Assembly: GCF_009827515.1 (NCBI RefSeq)
Contig: NZ_WTYO01000008.1
Coordinates: 1 to 64,000 of the forward strand
From: Pelagerythrobacter marinus
Lineage (GTDB): Bacteria; Pseudomonadota; Alphaproteobacteria; Sphingomonadales; Sphingomonadaceae
Direction of reading: 5' to 3'
Length of the DNA stretch: 64,000 nt
The notes below the pieces were generated by a model that saw only the letters and a program-made list of their open reading frames with translations, did no database searches and was not told the origin of the DNA. This document shows positions 30,463 to 63,632 of the stretch, piece by piece (the stretch's first letter is position 1; each line of letters opens with the position of its first letter). The translations under genes were made by a program, and so were the position numbers.

Positions 30463-31614
30463 ATGTCAGCAATTCGCCCCTGGCGCACGATCGAACGTCG
30501 CAAGAGCCGCCAGATCATGGTCGGCAAGGTGCCCGTGGGCGGCGATGCGCCGATCACGGTGCAGACGATGACCAACACCCCGACCGAGGACGCGGCGGCG
30601 ACGATCGACCAGATCCGCCGGTGCGAGGACGCCGGGGCGGACATCATCCGCGTTTCCTGCCCTACCGAAGAAGCGACCGCGGCCATGCCGGCGATCGTGC
30701 GCGCGGCGAATATCCCGATCGTCGCCGACATTCACTTCCACTACAAGCGCGCGCTGGAAGCGGCGGACGCCGGGGCCGCCTGCCTGCGGATCAACCCGGG
30801 CAATATCGGCAGCGACGCCCGCGTCGCCGAAGTGGTCCGCGCGGCCAAGGCCAACGGCTGCGCGATCCGCATCGGGGTCAACGCCGGGAGCCTGGAGAAG
30901 GACCTGCTGGAGAAATACGGCGAACCCTGCCCCGAGGCGCTGGTCGAAAGCGCGCTCGACCATATCAAGCTGCTGCAGGATCACGATTTCCACGATTACA
31001 AGGTGGCGGTGAAGGCGAGCGACGTGTTCCTGGCCGTCAGCGCCTACATGGGCCTGGCCGAAGCGGTCGATTGCCCCTTGCACCTGGGCATCACCGAGGC
31101 CGGCGGCCTGATCGGCGGGACGGTGAAATCGAGCATCGGCATCGGCAACCTGCTCTGGGCCGGGATCGGCGACACGATCCGCGTCTCGCTCTCCGCCGAA
31201 CCGGAAGACGAGGTGCGCGTCGGGTTCGAGATCCTGAAGGCGCTGGGCCTGCGAACCCGCGGCGTGCGCGTGGTCTCCTGCCCCAGCTGCGCCCGGCAGG
31301 GCTTCGACGTGATCCGCACGGTCCAGGCGCTGGAGGAGCGGCTGCAGCATATCAAGACCCCGCTCTCGCTCTCGGTCCTCGGCTGCGTCGTCAACGGCCC
31401 GGGCGAGGCGCGCGAGACCGACATCGGCATTACCGGCGGCGGCAAGGGCAAGCACATGGTCTATCTGTCGGGGATGACCGACCACCACGTGGCCGACGCC
31501 GACATGCTCGACCACATCGTCCGCCTGGTGGAGGAAAAGGCGGCCGAGATCCAGGCGGGGATGACCGACGCCGGCGAGGCCGACGAAGCGCCCGCGCCGC
31601 AGCCCGCCGGATGA
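30463..31614 (+). CDS. ispG: 4-hydroxy-3-methylbut-2-en-1-yl diphosphate synthase (IspG/GcpE)
   Basis: Penultimate-stage enzyme of the MEP isoprenoid pathway that reduces MEcPP to HMBPP with a 4Fe-4S cluster. The 383-residue form from ATG 30463 begins [21 protein letters not shown]. The TIM-barrel start ([18 protein letters not shown]) and the cluster ligands [12 protein letters not shown] and [11 protein letters not shown] near the C-terminus are all present. There is the short two-domain bacterial architecture with a Glu/Ala-rich tail after the conserved end. Confidence 0.96.
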
Positions 31615-31701
31615 GGTGCCGCGGCCGCGCCTGGCCGGGCCCTGCCGGCAAAACTGGGTCGTTCACGCTCCCGTTACCGGTTCGTGTGCTAGGATAGGCG
31701 G

Positions 31702-38136: not shown

Positions 38137-39162
38137 CTAGGCGCCCCTGACGAGGCGCAGTTTCTTGCGGCCGAGCACCGCCGCGGCGGCAAGGCCGAAC
38201 AGGATCGTCATCGGCGGCGCGGGCACCTGGGTGCCGCTCGTGCTGCCGTTGCTCGAGCTCGAGGTCGAGCTGGACGTCGAGGAGCTGGTCGAACTGCTCG
38301 TGCTCGAGCTGGTGGACGAGCTGGTCGAGCTGCTGGTGCTCGTGCTGCTGGTCACGTTGCCCGAGGTGGACGTGCTGGTCGAGACGTTGCCCGAAGTCGA
38401 GGTGGTCGAGGTCACGCCCCCGGTCGAGGTCGAAGTCGAGGTGGTCGAGGTAACGCCGCCGGTCGAGGACGAGGTCGTCGAGGTGACGCCGCCGGTCGAC
38501 GTCGAGGTCGTCGAGGTGACGCCGCCGGTCGACGTCGAGGTCGAGCTGCCCCCGGTGGAGGTGGAGGTCGAGCTTCCGCCGGTGGACGTCGAGGTCGAGC
38601 CACCCGAGGTCGAGGTCGACCCGCCCGAGGTGGAGGTCGATCCACCCGACGAGGTCGAGGTGACGACGACGCTGCCGCTGCTGCCGCCGCTGCCGCCGAA
38701 GAAGCCGCCGAAGAACCCGCCGCCGAAGCCGCCGAAACCGCCGCTGCCGCCGATCACCGTGACCCCGCCGCTGCTGCCGCCCGAAACGGGCGGGGCGGGG
38801 GGCAGGGGCACCGGCGCCATCGCGACCTGGTAGATCGGGGGGCATTCCTCGGCATAGGCATCGCCGTAGGCGGTGACCGGCGCGGCCGGCGCGGCGCCGG
38901 GGCCCATCGGGCCGGCGGGCACGCATTCGACCGTGCGGCGCACGATCCGGCGCTTGCGCTTGGTTTCCTTGGGCACGGTGCGCTTGGCAATCTTCTTCGG
39001 CGCCTGCTTGACGTAGCGGACCGGCGCGGTCTTCCCCTTGTCCGACTTGTACGACGGTTTATCGGTGATCGGCATTTCGGCCACGTGGACCGCGCCGCCT
39101 GCCAGCAGGACACCGCCCGCGGCAGTCGCGGACAATTTCGCCAGGGCCATTTTTACCGACAT
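38137..39162 (-). CDS. PEP-CTERM-like exported protein with Ser/Thr/Gly repeats
   Basis: A 341-residue exported protein. The N-terminus (MSVKMALAKLSATAAGGVLLAGGAV) is a signal sequence. A basic region follows (KKIAKRTVPKETKRKRR) and a Cys pair region (VECVPAG, EECPPIY). From about residue 130 there is a Gly-rich part (GGFGGFGGGFFGG) and then some 150 residues built almost only of S, T, G and V in short repeats. The C-terminus VPAPPMTILFGLAAAAVLGRKKLR has the PEP-CTERM-like order: short motif, hydrophobic helix, Arg/Lys cluster. ATG 39162 is preferred to the TTG at 39168. A surface or matrix role is inferred. A terminator follows. Confidence 0.75.
   Translation of the reverse strand: MSVKMALAKLSATAAGGVLLAGGAVHVAEMPITDKPSYKSDKGKTAPVRYVKQAPKKIAKRTVPKETKRKRRIVRRTVECVPAGPMGPGAAPAAPVTAYGDAYAEECPPIYQVAMAPVPLPPAPPVSGGSSGGVTVIGGSGGFGGFGGGFFGGFFGGSGGSSGSVVVTSTSSGGSTSTSGGSTSTSGGSTSTSTGGSSTSTSTGGSSTSTSTGGVTSTTSTSTGGVTSTTSSSTGGVTSTTSTSTSTGGVTSTTSTSGNVSTSTSTSGNVTSSTSTSSSTSSSTSSSTSSSTSSSTSSSTSSSSNGSTSGTQVPAPPMTILFGLAAAAVLGRKKLRLVRGA
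38237..38660 (-). repeat. Low-complexity Ser/Thr coding repeats
   Basis: The plus strand shows near-periodic GTCGAGGTC/GTGGAGGTC and GTCGAGCTG units in multiples of three. On the minus strand these encode repeated STST, GGVTSTTS and SSSTSS blocks. Unit length varies (about 36-45 bases for the GGVTSTTSTST block), so the array probably changes length by slippage while staying in frame. Confidence 0.7.
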
Positions 39163-39380
39163 GGGCAAGCTCTCTTCATTGCATCGCGGGGAGCGCCAAG
39201 GCCGACGGGTTCGGCATCCCGGCTGGTCCCTCTGCCTTCAGGAAGGCCCATGCGGGGGGTGAGGGCAATGGAATTAACCATCGCCGGGGCGCCAAAACGG
39301 GAAAAAACCGGCCGCTTGCGCGATGTCGGCCAGACTTGTCCCGCGATGGGTCGGAAACCGGGCGAATCCTTTCCGCCGCG

Positions 39381-40412
39381 TTAGGGATTTCCGTCGAACA
39401 AACCCGATTGCGCGCCCTTGGGCGGCGTCATTTCGAGGTGCTGCCAGCCCGATTCGTTCAGGCACCGGCCGCGCGCCGTGCGCGCCACCAGGCCCAGCTG
39501 GATCAGGTAGGGCTCGATCACTTCCTCCACCGTGTCGCGCGGTTCGGAAAGGCCCGCGGCGAGCGTCTCCACCCCCACCGGCCCGCCGCGATAGGTCGTC
39601 GCGATCATGGTCAGGTAGCGGCGATCCATCGCGTCGAGGCCGAGGCGGTCGATCTCGAGCCGGGTCAGGGCCTCGTCGGCCACCTTGCGCGTGACCGTGC
39701 CCCCGCCGGCGACATGCGCGAAGTCGCGCACCCGGCGCAGCAGCCGCCCGGCGACGCGGGGGGTGCCGCGGCTGCGCCGGGCAATCTCGCGCGCGCCGGC
39801 GGCGTCGATGTCCATTCCCAGCAGGCGCGCGCCGCGGGTGACGACCCGGTCCAGTTCCTCGTGGGTGTAGAAGTTCAGCCGCACCGGGATGCCGAATCGG
39901 TCGCGCAGCGGCGTCGTCAGCAGGCCCTGGCGGGTGGTCGCGCCGACCAGGGTGAAGGGCGGCAGGTCGATCCGCACGCTGCGGGCGGACGGCCCCTCGC
40001 CGATGATCAGGTCGAGCGCGCGATCTTCCATCGCGGGGTAGAGCACTTCCTCGACCACCGGGTTCAGCCGGTGGATCTCGTCGATGAACAGGACATCGTG
40101 CGGCTCGAGGTTGGTCAGCAGCGCGGCGAGGTCGCCCGCCTTGGCGATCACCGGGCCGGACGTGGCGCGAAAGCCCACGCCCAGTTCCTTGGCCACGATC
40201 TGCGCCAGCGTGGTCTTGCCCAGCCCCGGCGGGCCGAAGAACAGCACGTGGTCCATCGCCTCGCCGCGCGACTTCGCGCTTTCGATGAAAACCTTCAGGT
40301 TCCCGCGCGCGGCCTCCTGCCCGACGAACTCGTCCAGCGACTTCGGCCGCAGGGCCGCGTCCGGGTCTTCCGGCTGGCGATCGGGGGTGTGGAGGGGGAC
40401 GGGATCGGTCAT
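39381..40412 (-). CDS. ruvB: Holliday junction branch-migration ATPase RuvB
   Basis: Hexameric AAA+ motor of the RuvABC resolvasome, 343 residues. It has Walker [15 protein letters not shown], Walker [13 protein letters not shown], sensor-1-like GATTRQGLL and the C-terminal winged-helix domain ([14 protein letters not shown]). The start [10 protein letters not shown] at 40412 is standard. In most bacteria ruvA lies just upstream on the same strand. Here a GIY-YIG gene in the opposite direction and hairpin repeats (40437-40898) separate them, so ruvB needs its own promoter or read-through. Confidence 0.97.
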
Positions 40413-40436: not shown

Positions 40437-40463
40437 TGGACGCTGAAACAAGTTCAGGGTGAC
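40437..40463 (+). repeat. REP-like hairpin R1 (TGG-stem-loop-GAC)
   Basis: 27 bases: TGG, ACGCTGAA, loop ACAAG, TTCAGGGT, GAC. The stem has one mismatch. It has the same layout as R2 (inverted) and R3 around the GIY-YIG gene, and begins 25 bases upstream of the ruvB start. Confidence 0.85.
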
Positions 40464-40497
40464 AGGGAGGGAACCCGATCCATTTCCGACTCGATCC

Positions 40498-40524
40498 GTC
40501 ATGCTGAACTTGTTTCAGCATCCA
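40498..40524 (-). repeat. REP-like hairpin R2, inverted copy
   Basis: 27 bases on the plus strand: GTC, ATGCTGAA, loop CTTGT, TTCAGCAT, CCA. A perfect 8-bp stem. It is the reverse complement form of R1, 34 bases away, so R1 and R2 form an inverted pair ahead of the GIY-YIG gene. Confidence 0.88.
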
Positions 40525-40545
40525 TCTCCCGGCACCCTCCGCCCC

Positions 40546-40881
40546 ATGCCGTTCGAGCGCAACCCCTGCGTCTACGTCCTCGCCAGCGGTCGCTACGGCA
40601 CCCTCTACATCGGCGTCACCAGCGGTCTGATACAGCGGCTCTATCAGCACCGCGAAGGAATCGCGGGCGGATTCACGAAGCGATACCGGGTCCACCGGCT
40701 CGTTCGCTACGAAATGTTCGGCGACATGGAAGGGGCGATCCTGCGCGAGAGGCAGCTCGAACGCTGGCACCGGCAGTGGAAGATCAACCTGATCGAGCGG
40801 GACAACCCGCACTGGGCGGACCTGGCGGTGGGACTCGGCTTCGAGCCGCCGGCTTTGCGCGGGGGGCGCAATGGATCCTGA
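40546..40881 (+). CDS. Single-domain GIY-YIG (URI-type) endonuclease, copy 1
   Basis: A 111-residue protein consisting of little more than a GIY-YIG nuclease domain. It has CVYVLASGRYGTLYIGVTS (the two halves as VYV and YIG), then the catalytic Arg in LIQRLYQHREG, and the metal-binding Glu in AILRERQLERW. ATG 40546 is the first Met after hairpin R2. The stop codon TGA (40879-40881) lies inside hairpin R3. It is oriented opposite to ruvA and ruvB and interrupts them. It is similar across its length to the gene at 63303-63602, with shared GFT.RY, WKI.LIE and NP.W.DL. Function in cells is unknown. Confidence 0.85.
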   Translation: MPFERNPCVYVLASGRYGTLYIGVTSGLIQRLYQHREGIAGGFTKRYRVHRLVRYEMFGDMEGAILRERQLERWHRQWKINLIERDNPHWADLAVGLGFEPPALRGGRNGS

Positions 40882-40898
40882 AACGAGTTCAGGATGAC
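40872..40898 (+). repeat. REP-like hairpin R3
   Basis: 27 bases: TGG, ATCCTGAA, loop ACGAG, TTCAGGAT, GAC, with a perfect 8-bp stem. It is in the same orientation as R1 and supplies the stop codon of the GIY-YIG gene. The ruvA 3' end begins 36 bases further on. Confidence 0.88.
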
Positions 40899-40934
40899 GG
40901 GTGGGGCCGGGGCGCCGGACGGAACAGGTTTCCA

Positions 40935-41543
40935 TCACCCCGCCGCCCGTTTCAGCGCGACGCGGATCAGGTCGCTTTCGCTCGCGTCTTCGCCCAGTTC
41001 GCCTTGCGCGGCGGCGACGGCGCGGGCGGCGACGGCGGGCTTGAAGCCGAGGTTCTCGAGCGCCGAGACGGCATCGGCGCTGGCGCCGCCCGCCGGGGCC
41101 GCCGCGCCGATGGCGGCGCCCGCCATGCCACCGCCGGGCAGGGCGCCGGCCTTGTCCTTCAACTCGTTGACGATCCGCCCGGCCAGCTTCGGTCCCACGC
41201 CTTGCGCGCGCGCCACCATCGCCGCGTCGCCGCCCGAGCAGGCGGCCCGCAGTTCGCCCGGCGAGAGGGTGGAGAGGATCGCCAGCGCGACCTTGCTGCC
41301 CACGCCCTGCACCTGGGTCAGCAGGCGGAACCAGTCGCGTTCGCCCGCCTCGGCGAAGCCGAGCAGGCGCATGTCGTTCTCGCTCACCTGCAGGTCGGTA
41401 TAGACGGTGCAGGCTTCCCCGGTCTCGCCCAGCGCGGCCAGCGTCTTGGACGAACAGTGCACGAGGTAGCCGACGCCCGCGACGTCGATCACCGCCCAGT
41501 CCGTGCCGGTTTCGTCGAGCAGGCCCCGCAGTTTCGCAATCAT
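40935..41543 (-). CDS. ruvA: Holliday junction DNA-binding protein RuvA
   Basis: Tetrameric junction-recognition subunit, 202 residues. Domain I (about 1-62) starts [29 protein letters not shown]. Domain II holds two helix-hairpin-helix motifs ([16 protein letters not shown] and [16 protein letters not shown]) that contact the DNA backbone. A Gly/Ala linker leads to domain III (about 150-202), which binds RuvB. The start at 41543 is the common one. RuvC is not adjacent in this window. Confidence 0.96.
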
Positions 41544-62429: not shown

Positions 62430-63239
62430 ATGGCCCTGCCCCCCGACCGCATCGACCGCTTCGCGCGCCACATCGTCCTGCCCGAGATCGGGGGCGCGGG
62501 GCAGGTCGCGCTGGCCGAGCGGCACGTCGCGCTGGTCGGGCTGGGCGGGATCGGAAGTCCGGCGCTGCAATATCTCGCGGGCGCCGGGATCGGGCGCTTC
62601 ACCCTGATCGACGACGGCCGGGTCGAGCTGTCCAACCTCCAGCGCCAGACGATCTATGCCGAGCGCGACGTGGGCCACGGCAAGGCCGTGTCGGCGCGGC
62701 GCTGGCTGGCCAATTTCGACCAGGCGATCGCGGTCGAGCTGGCCGACCGCCGGGTCGGGGCGGACACGGCCCGCGCGGCGATCGCCGGGGCGGACCTGGT
62801 GCTCGACGGGACCGACAACTTCGCCACCCGGCTGGCGATTTCCGACGCCTGCGTGGCGAGCGGCATTCCCCTGCTCTCGGCCGCGGTGGGCCGGTTCCAG
62901 GGGCAGGTCGGCGCCTTCGCCGGGCACTTGCCGGGCGAGGCCTGCTATCGCTGCTACGTCGGCGATGCCTTCGATGCCGACGATTGCGACACTTGCGCCG
63001 AAGACGGGATGCTGGGCGCCATGTCGGGCTGGACCGGCACGTTCGCGGCCATGCAGGCGGTGCGCGTCCTGCTCGATGGCAAGTCCGCCTTCGGCGATCC
63101 GCAGTGGGGCCGCCTGCACCTTCTCGACGGCCTCAAGCCCGCAATGCGCACCTTGCGGATCGCGAAGGACCCGGCGTGCCGAGGCTGCGGTTCTGCCGGA
63201 AAAGCGTCCGATGATGGATCCCCGCCTTCGCGGGGATGA
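62430..63239 (+). CDS. MoeB/ThiF-family adenylyltransferase
   Basis: E1-like enzyme that adenylates the C-terminus of a ubiquitin-fold sulfur carrier (MoaD or ThiS), 269 residues. The ATP-binding motif is VALVGLGGIGSPALQYLAGAGIG, followed by RVELSNLQRQTIYAERDVGHGKA and DNFATRLAISDACVA. Zinc-type Cys pairs are CYRC and CRGC, and the catalytic-Cys segment is CDTCAEDGMLGAM. No rhodanese domain, so it is a MoeB/ThiF/HesA rather than MOCS3 type. ATG 62430 is chosen. The final residues SDDGSPPSRG and the stop are encoded by a hairpin repeat that overlaps the 3' end. Confidence 0.9.
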   Translation: MALPPDRIDRFARHIVLPEIGGAGQVALAERHVALVGLGGIGSPALQYLAGAGIGRFTLIDDGRVELSNLQRQTIYAERDVGHGKAVSARRWLANFDQAIAVELADRRVGADTARAAIAGADLVLDGTDNFATRLAISDACVASGIPLLSAAVGRFQGQVGAFAGHLPGEACYRCYVGDAFDADDCDTCAEDGMLGAMSGWTGTFAAMQAVRVLLDGKSAFGDPQWGRLHLLDGLKPAMRTLRIAKDPACRGCGSAGKASDDGSPPSRG

Positions 63240-63240
63240 C
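63215..63240 (+). repeat. REP-like hairpin S1
   Basis: 26 bases: TGG, ATCCCCGC, loop CTTC, GCGGGGAT, GAC, a perfect 8-bp stem. It forms the last codons and stop of the moeB-like gene and has the same TGG...GAC frame as R1-R3 with a different stem. Confidence 0.88.
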
Positions 63241-63255
63241 AACAAGAGCAGCAGT

Positions 63256-63281
63256 GTCATTCCCGCGAATGCGGGAATCCA
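63256..63281 (-). repeat. REP-like hairpin S2, inverted copy
   Basis: Plus strand: GTC, ATTCCCGC, loop GAAT, GCGGGAAT, CCA, a perfect 8-bp stem. It is inverted relative to S1, 15 bases away, and lies just past the 3' end of the second GIY-YIG gene. Confidence 0.88.
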
Positions 63282-63302
63282 TGGCCCGCCCTGCCGATCG
63301 GT

Positions 63303-63602
63303 TCAGCGGTTCAGGTCATGCCAAAGATCGCGCCAGTCCGGATTGCCAGCCTCGATCAGCGCGATCTTCCACGCACGGCGCCATTTCTTCAGCGCCTTCT
63401 CGCGCGCAATGGCCTCATGAATATCGCCGAACGGTTCGAGATGGACCGGTCGCCTCACCCCGTATTGCCGCGTGAAGCCGGGAACCCTGCCGTTCCGGTG
63501 CTCCTCGATCCGTTCGGCAAGGCGGGACGTGAGGCCGATGTAGAGCGTGCCGCGCTTCTGACTCGCAAGGATGTAGACCCAGCAATATGGCTCGTCGGTC
63601 AT
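63303..63602 (-). CDS. Single-domain GIY-YIG (URI-type) endonuclease, copy 2
   Basis: A 99-residue minimal GIY-YIG nuclease. CWVYILASQKRGTLYIGLTS carries the VYI...YIG halves. The catalytic Arg lies in LAERIEEHRNG, and the Glu in EAIAREKALKKWRR. It is homologous along its length to the protein at 40546-40881 and shares WKIALIEAGNPDWRDL. ATG 63602 is four bases from hairpin S3, so the promoter and leader lie in or beyond the repeat. It sits between the moeB-like gene and the sirtuin gene, again next to an inverted hairpin pair. Confidence 0.86.
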   Translation of the reverse strand: MTDEPYCWVYILASQKRGTLYIGLTSRLAERIEEHRNGRVPGFTRQYGVRRPVHLEPFGDIHEAIAREKALKKWRRAWKIALIEAGNPDWRDLWHDLNR

Positions 63603-63606
63603 GCCG

Positions 63607-63632
63607 TGGGGCCCCGCCTTCGTGGGGATGAC
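63607..63632 (+). repeat. REP-like hairpin S3, degenerate
   Basis: TGG, GGCCCCGC, loop CTTC, GTGGGGAT, GAC. The outer stem pairs are lost by substitution, but the conserved TGG/GAC borders and the loop identify it as the same type as S1. It lies just upstream of the GIY-YIG start. Confidence 0.7.

Follow-up and report, generated by a model that had tools for sequence, protein, structure and literature searches.

A GIY-YIG nuclease gene framed by CGTC hairpins in Pelagerythrobacter marinus: a candidate mobile unit

A small GIY-YIG nuclease gene lies between ruvA and ruvB of Pelagerythrobacter marinus, set between two palindromes of the CGTC class of REP sequences. We propose that this block is a ‘CGTC REPtron’, a gene-bearing member of the CGTC REPs whose nuclease, probably of the Ssn kind, would cut the hairpins and so spread both the unit and gene-less hairpin dimers. 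We put the probability of this reading at roughly 0.7. The window, by which we mean the whole stretch of 64,000 nucleotides that was analysed (contig NZ_WTYO01000008.1, positions 1 to 64,000), holds the following features.

31585–31659, no strand: unit-free place between the GcpE (ispG) and L,D-transpeptidase genes, where P. rhizovicinus and a genus mate (G098) carry a homologous unit
39381–40412, minus strand: ruvB, flanking gene (Pfam RuvB_N, RuvB_C)
40437–40463, minus strand: R1, an additional REP outside the unit, with one stem mismatch
40498–40898, plus strand: the proposed mobile unit (R2, gene, R3), running from GTC to GAC (CGTC to GACG at 40497–40899), with limits from homology to P. 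rhizovicinus
40498–40524, plus strand: R2, left hairpin, CGTC-2 type REP, head outward
40546–40881, plus strand: GIY-YIG nuclease gene, 111 aa (Pfam PF01541, 45.1 bits, E 1.3e-11; ATG at 40546, TGA ending at 40881)
40872–40898, minus strand: R3, right hairpin, CGTC-2 type REP, head outward, containing the stop codon of the gene
40935–41543, minus strand: ruvA, flanking gene (Pfam RuvA_N, RuvA_C)
63215–63240, minus strand: further CGTC-1 hairpin adjoining the second unit
63256–63632, minus strand: second unit, with CGTC-1 type hairpins at 63256–63281 (perfect) and 63606–63632 (degenerate)
63303–63602, minus strand: GIY-YIG gene of the second unit, 99 aa (Pfam PF01541, 55.4 bits)

What are the limits of the unit? 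R2 and R3 have perfect 8-bp stems, while one of the eight stem pairs of R1 is mismatched. All three have 5-nt loops, GTC heads and CCA tails, the form (TGG, 8-base stem, 5-base loop, stem, GAC) given in a preliminary description of this DNA, which was also right that R3 supplies the stop codon. The GTC heads of R2 and R3 point outward and their CCA tails point towards the gene. That description bracketed the gene by R1 as well as by R2 and R3. The bracket stands for R2 and R3; R1 falls outside, because the homologous unit of P. rhizovicinus matches the window over exactly 40497–40899, from CGTC to GACG. We conclude that the unit is R2–gene–R3, narrower than first described, and that R1 is a separate neighbouring repeat.

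The repeat class is already known. R2 and R3 fit CGTC-2, and the hairpins of the second unit fit CGTC-1. CGTC-2 repeats have a CGTC, TGTC or CCTC head and a CCA tail, with an 8-bp stem, a 5-nt loop and A-T at the first stem positions; R2 and R3 carry the CGTC head and R1 the TGTC head, and all three have the rest, with the one mismatch in R1. Five hairpins with at most one mismatch occur in the window, against a mean of 0.15 (maximum 2) in 60 first-order Markov simulations; four are perfect, against 0.017. All five adjoin one or other of its two small GIY-YIG genes.

The protein is a small stand-alone GIY-YIG protein, as is said of Ssn. By comparison with I-TevI we take certain Tyr, His, Glu and Asn positions, and Arg31, to be catalytic. 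The first four are invariant in 15 aligned relatives and Arg31 is kept in 14 of the 15, for which reason the nuclease is probably active. By profile its nearest solved relatives are the UPF0213 proteins 1zg2 (E 1.8e-6) and 1ywl (E 5.4e-4) and the N-terminal domain of UvrC (E 0.0066). Unlike the window gene, however, the GIY-YIG locus of the same genome that we take to be UvrC (on contig C9) has no framing hairpin in the 3.2 kb examined, and neither has the genome's remaining GIY-YIG locus (on C5). A search of phage records gave no match. An alternative start codon, an ATG within R2, was considered: it is in frame with the gene in the window, but the unit of P. rhizovicinus, counted by hand, has it in another frame, and so the start was kept at 40546. 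Annotators should beware of peptides such as MLNLFQHP in longer reading frames of the window, which are translated repeat. Elsewhere in the window, 38137–39168 (minus strand) encodes a 343-aa protein that contains long Ser/Thr/Gly repeats and matched no Pfam family at E 0.01; its tail looks, by eye, PEP-CTERM-like.

The preliminary description had the unit separating ruvA from ruvB in the opposite direction. Pfam bears out this arrangement: the gap is 522 bp and the GIY-YIG gene lies on the strand opposite to both. As an oddity it does not stand, since an interrupted ruvA–ruvB pair is common in the group. Thirty RuvB loci of relatives were compared, of which 22 had a readable gap (the other eight lacked ruvA in the stretch examined), and only two of these gaps were shorter than 40 bp. 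The unit was present in seven of the 22, so that the comparison of spacings proposed earlier finds gaps both with and without it. In three genus mates (L051, L053 and L054) a DoxX-like gene takes its place, on a 418-bp stretch whose product in L051 is a DoxX-family protein (Pfam), encoded in the direction of ruvAB; the gap thus accepts different fillings. Nor is the unit a recent peculiarity of one genome, since 24 of 210 GIY-YIG loci adjoin ruvA and/or ruvB, the gene being opposite in 20 and in the same direction in four.

How old is the copy at this site? On a tree of the units (built without L230, which is from the same genome as L038, and without L242, L245, L246, L247 and L049 of G152; L023 and L237 were labelled by ruvB alone and L024 by ruvA alone) the site labels cluster. 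Even so, the well-supported branches cannot be fitted with fewer than three changes for the label ‘elsewhere’, and 12 are needed on the best tree. The labels thus point to a ruvA–ruvB copy that is old and long kept, and to units that move now and then; this copy is common to several genera, not to all.

Does the unit occur elsewhere? In P. rhizovicinus the homologous unit adjoins the GcpE (ispG) gene. Both P. rhizovicinus and G098 have the unit plus a further small gene between GcpE and the L,D-transpeptidase, the place that is unit-free in the window, and the ruvA–ruvB gap of G151, which we take to be P. rhizovicinus, holds a DoxX-like gene and no unit. The two pairs of Pelagerythrobacter units compared form one clade (support 98/94), in which the closest relatives of the window unit belong to the same genus and lie at a different site. 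The same block thus stands at different sites, with homology stopping at its ends. For a wider view, homology was followed outward in 1478 pairs of both-sided loci, and 123 pairs with homology more than 60 bp past a hairpin (a common site) were set apart. In the remaining 1355 pairs, without shared surroundings, homology ended within 5 bp of the outer edge of the hairpin in 496 cases on the left and 414 on the right; it ended at least 40 bp inside the unit in 767 and 830 cases, and ran 6–60 bp beyond the hairpin in 77 and 88.

Vacant and collapsed sites are found as well. The second unit, whose CGTC-1 hairpins differ from R2 and R3, is common to G152 and G004. Its site is vacant in the genus mates G150, G149 and G098, where it is 416–434 bp shorter, and is occupied by other sequence in G151, G015 and G002. 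Among Sphingobium plasmids, a unit separates fnrL from a regulator gene in pTomMM7Aa and six relatives. At that site pTomTYG64a has a single symmetric hairpin, GTC at one end and GAC at the other, in which the left head is joined to the right stem-loop; pTomTYG74a has the same with mismatches, and pTomTYG72a and pTomTYG65a have no symmetric hairpin there. Sinorhizobium sp. K101 likewise has a collapsed symmetric hairpin, with a CTC head, where Sinorhizobium meliloti Ak57 has a truncated unit. In a comparison of eight relatives, one site has a 90-bp gene-less dimer in some and lacks it in others. Among the 149 genomes of the family we counted 15 symmetric CGTC-2 hairpins of the GTC..GAC form, in 12 genomes, and none of the reciprocal TGG..CCA form with two CCA tails. 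Five of the 15 have two unlike arms, as expected if both hairpins of a dimer had fused. Collapsed sites would also result from passive deletion between stem arms, and these therefore reveal the anatomy of the unit and not its enzyme. No target-site duplication was evident by eye at the Sphingobium site, and between species the intergenic flanks, at the places compared, were too diverged for exact target sites or duplications to be read. We consider mobility over evolutionary time to be well supported by these sequence comparisons.

If the hairpins belong to the gene, do they accompany its relatives? We scored as framing a correctly facing CGTC hairpin, head outward, within 150 bp of the gene. 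Loci were chosen for their similarity to the window protein, and the rates therefore apply to its relatives and not to all GIY-YIG genes. In a first set of 130 (118 from searches of the family and the class, 12 from plasmid records) 73 were framed on both sides, 23 on one side and 34 on neither; when the frames were moved by 800 or 1000 bp, both-sided framing was scored in 1 of 508. Over the 118 loci from the family and class searches, outward-headed hairpins at 0–100 bp numbered 73 upstream and 71 downstream, falling to 0 to 3 per 100-bp bin, in either facing, at 500–1400 bp. A second set, 80 named loci obtained by scanning genome contigs (one locus, L230 = L038, is in both sets), gave 42 framed on both sides, 27 on one and 11 on neither, with 0 of 143 in shifted frames. 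Both-sided framing extends from many sphingomonads to Lysobacteraceae (L250), Planctomycetes (L249), Magnetococcales (L267) and a Rickettsiales bin (L283); framing is one-sided in loci from Bacteroidetes (L274), Omnitrophus (L275) and a Patescibacteria contig (L271), and absent from an Anaerolineae contig (L265).

The likeness to REP elements and their RAYT transposases drawn in the preliminary description is thereby strengthened: the enzyme gene is flanked by REPs of the genome's own dispersed family, and its relatives are hairpin-flanked beyond chance. Nor is the gene fixed at one place with no empty site, or the hairpin no commoner beside it than elsewhere, since unit-free sites exist, framing exceeds background and the genus uses two sites.

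Several loci show arrangements of their own. Genes of Planktothrix and Spirosoma are flanked, by eye, by other GTCAT-headed palindromes that the hairpin detector did not count. A GIY-YIG gene on Planktothrix agardhii plasmid p1 (L187), with GTCATTCTGAG-type palindromes on both sides, has an MmeI-like gene as one neighbour and drmA of a DISARM locus as the other. In Azospirillum lipoferum 4B (AZO_p3, L191) a GIY-YIG gene with a head-to-head dimer on each side is inserted between sufB and sufC; the insertion is absent from A. oryzae, A. ramasamyi and strain B510. Downstream of the homologue of Photobacterium sp. GJ3 (L185, 1955–3128) CGTC-1 hairpins alternate in a regular array, in pairs about 150 bp apart.

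Is each nuclease matched to its own hairpins? The left–right hairpin distance is 0.10 within a locus and 0.40 between loci, and none of 10000 shuffles did as well. Across the 73 both-sided loci hairpin distance rises with protein distance (Mantel r 0.44, 0 of 5000). Nine genomes have two or three framed genes each (20 loci); when hairpins were exchanged between genes of one genome, only 8 of 20000 trials did as well as the observed pairing, and the matching is therefore not only kinship of genomes. It supports a unit; with specificity it is consistent, since common descent without recognition would give the same pattern.

How do the dispersed repeats relate to the gene? The exact CGTC-2 pattern occurs 977 times, in 62 of the 149 family genomes, and the reversed pattern in none of the 149. 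The P. marinus genome has 14 exact copies, and head-to-head dimers of 88–90 bp are found in it and in its genus mates. Many genomic copies of the repeat are a feature attributed to Ssn also; the repeat cognate to the window enzyme is here assigned from the framing. Gene relatives are patchily spread over 104 of the 149 genomes, with up to 11 copies in one genome, some with internal stop codons. Counting the unit's own hairpins, and with genomes that are mutually related, 34 of the 35 genomes with a close homologue (E ≤ 1e-37) have CGTC-2 repeats, 25 of them at least five, against 28 of the remaining 114, 17 of them at least five. Four genomes (G018, G070, G136 and G142) have 6 to 26 repeats and no homologue that we found; the repeats can thus outlive or precede the gene. 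The inner ends of 28 units outscore shuffles against profiles of 20 dimers, a general likeness only. A side-specific derivation of dimers from the unit was rejected: only 8 of the 28 left ends fitted the side predicted for them (20 fitted the wrong one), and of the right ends 18 of 28 fitted theirs.

Two further observations concern the repeats. Five of the 16 CTGAAACNNGTTCAG matches in the P. marinus genome lie about 400–540 bp from a contig end (L008, L010, L011, L013 and L014), and the near-identical stretches there also contain a second palindrome (GAGCTCCTGCGAAAGCAGGAGC and relatives); these stretches are a longer repeat at which the assembly breaks. At the site of one P. marinus CGTC-2 dimer (L012), G004 has a dimer of another hairpin sequence, of the CCCCGGACTTGATCCGGGG type (L168), as if different repeat classes used the same place.

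Neisseria gonorrhoeae has a homologue, 59.8% identical over 87 aa, which sits among dRS3-like hairpins. Chenal et al. are said in 2025 to have described Ssn as site-specific single-stranded nucleases with the GIY-YIG fold, and Neisseria Ssn is reportedly tied to natural transformation. Ssn and the window protein have in common a small stand-alone GIY-YIG domain tied to a short many-copy repeat; single-strand cleavage is a reported trait of Ssn and a predicted one of the window protein. With REPtrons, in which GTAG REPs surround a RAYT gene, the unit shares one enzyme gene between palindromes of a dispersed family, gene-less dimers and collapsed or solitary repeats. It differs in having a GIY-YIG protein and GTC heads in place of an HUH/Y1 tyrosine transposase and GTAG heads.

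The 2013 survey of CGTC REPs describes a CGTC head, a stem of 8–9 bp, a loop of 4–5 nt, a CCA tail and mostly head-to-head dimers, places neisserial dRS3 in the class CGTC-1, and presents these repeats as free of association with transposase genes and apparently without a dedicated transposase (Di Nocera, De Gregorio and Rocco 2013, PMC3733652). The window hairpins share the CGTC head, 8-bp stem, 5-nt loop, CCA tail and head-to-head dimers with 20–100 bp spacers; the sections of the survey consulted name no associated enzyme gene, whereas the window has a nuclease gene between two hairpins (PMC3733652). In the literature searched, which took in few subscription journals, we found no paper linking GIY-YIG proteins to CGTC REPs, dRS3 or REPINs, though the Ssn paper may already describe repeats beside ssn genes. 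The reading of the hairpin–gene–hairpin block as a mobile unit is proposed here, and that paper may already give it.

Could the gene have come to lie among the repeats by chance, with tyrosine transposases moving the latter? REPs are mainly intergenic, according to the survey (Di Nocera 2013, PMC3733652), and a Y1_Tnp match (the RAYT domain) occurs in 24 of the 149 genomes and in 14 of the 62 that bear repeats. Yet the other 48 of the 62, P. marinus included, gave no match to a Y1/RAYT-type transposase, the sections of the survey consulted report no CGTC-flanked tyrosine transposase (PMC3733652), and chance placement accounts neither for the fixed facing and spacing of the hairpins, nor for near-zero framing in shifted frames, nor for the matching of hairpin to protein. 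This explanation is already disfavoured and we regard it as highly improbable. An immobile, domesticated nuclease is a better candidate, though still an unlikely one. Such a gene would have a cellular role, the cutting of incoming or lagging-strand DNA at the repeats that is reported for Neisseria Ssn, and its stay beside ruvAB would reflect a link to recombination. The frequency of loci adjoining ruvA and/or ruvB, the clustering of site labels on the tree and the N. gonorrhoeae homologue among its dRS3-like hairpins all fit this. Against an immobile gene stand, however, units of one genus at different sites whose homology stops at the hairpins, the up to 11 copies in one genome, the patchy spread and the copies with internal stop codons.

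GIY-YIG enzymes are often homing endonucleases. REP dimers might accordingly have come first, spread by other means, the nuclease then cutting gene-less dimers and repair copying the gene in. Dimers and units do have identical heads and facing, and some genomes have repeats without the gene. We nonetheless find homing slightly less probable even than domestication: no unit was found replacing a dimer at one site, and at the second-unit and fnrL sites the alternative state is vacancy, a different filling or a single symmetric hairpin. The preferred reading, a mobile unit driven by its own nuclease, has evidence against it too. No framing hairpin accompanies 34 of the 130 and 11 of the 80 loci, and four genomes have repeats with no homologue found. 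The inner ends of dimers do not match the ends of units side for side, and collapse is possible by passive deletion between direct repeats of 8–9 bp. Neither a target-site duplication nor live movement was observed, and the ruvA–ruvB copy has stayed in place over several genera.

How might such a unit move? The mobile element would be about 400 bp long, two head-to-head CGTC hairpins with the nuclease gene between them. The nuclease would recognise the hairpins of its own unit, most likely when replication, DNA uptake or repair leaves them single-stranded, and cut near them; if both ends were cut, the unit would be freed or marked for copying. Hydrolysis by GIY-YIG enzymes involves no covalent link to the DNA, and the freed or copied unit would therefore have to be joined elsewhere by host functions. 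The gene-less head-to-head dimers, about 90 bp long, would be non-autonomous companions, their spread perhaps driven by the same enzyme, and recombination or slippage between stem arms would collapse a unit or dimer to one symmetric GTC...GAC hairpin. The single-stranded hairpin is taken as the target by analogy with Ssn and with RAYT. The latter cuts the GTAG motif of the single-stranded REP, as told in the survey (Di Nocera 2013, PMC3733652).

What follows if the preferred reading is correct? We give even odds to a wider proposal, namely that CGTC REPs, which several phyla possess, belong as non-autonomous members to a superfamily of single-strand mobile elements whose drivers are Ssn-kind GIY-YIG nucleases. 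Such REPtrons would form a class that parallels the HUH/RAYT class without deriving from it, with matched enzyme–hairpin pairs of which several coexist in one genome. The unit may explain the spread, through the genomes of bacteria, of repeats that have been described as having no dedicated enzyme. The matched, framing nuclease is a concrete and testable answer to that question and would add a non-HUH enzyme to REP-like mobility, and the many natural enzyme–hairpin pairs are on offer for the study of how single-stranded DNA is recognised.
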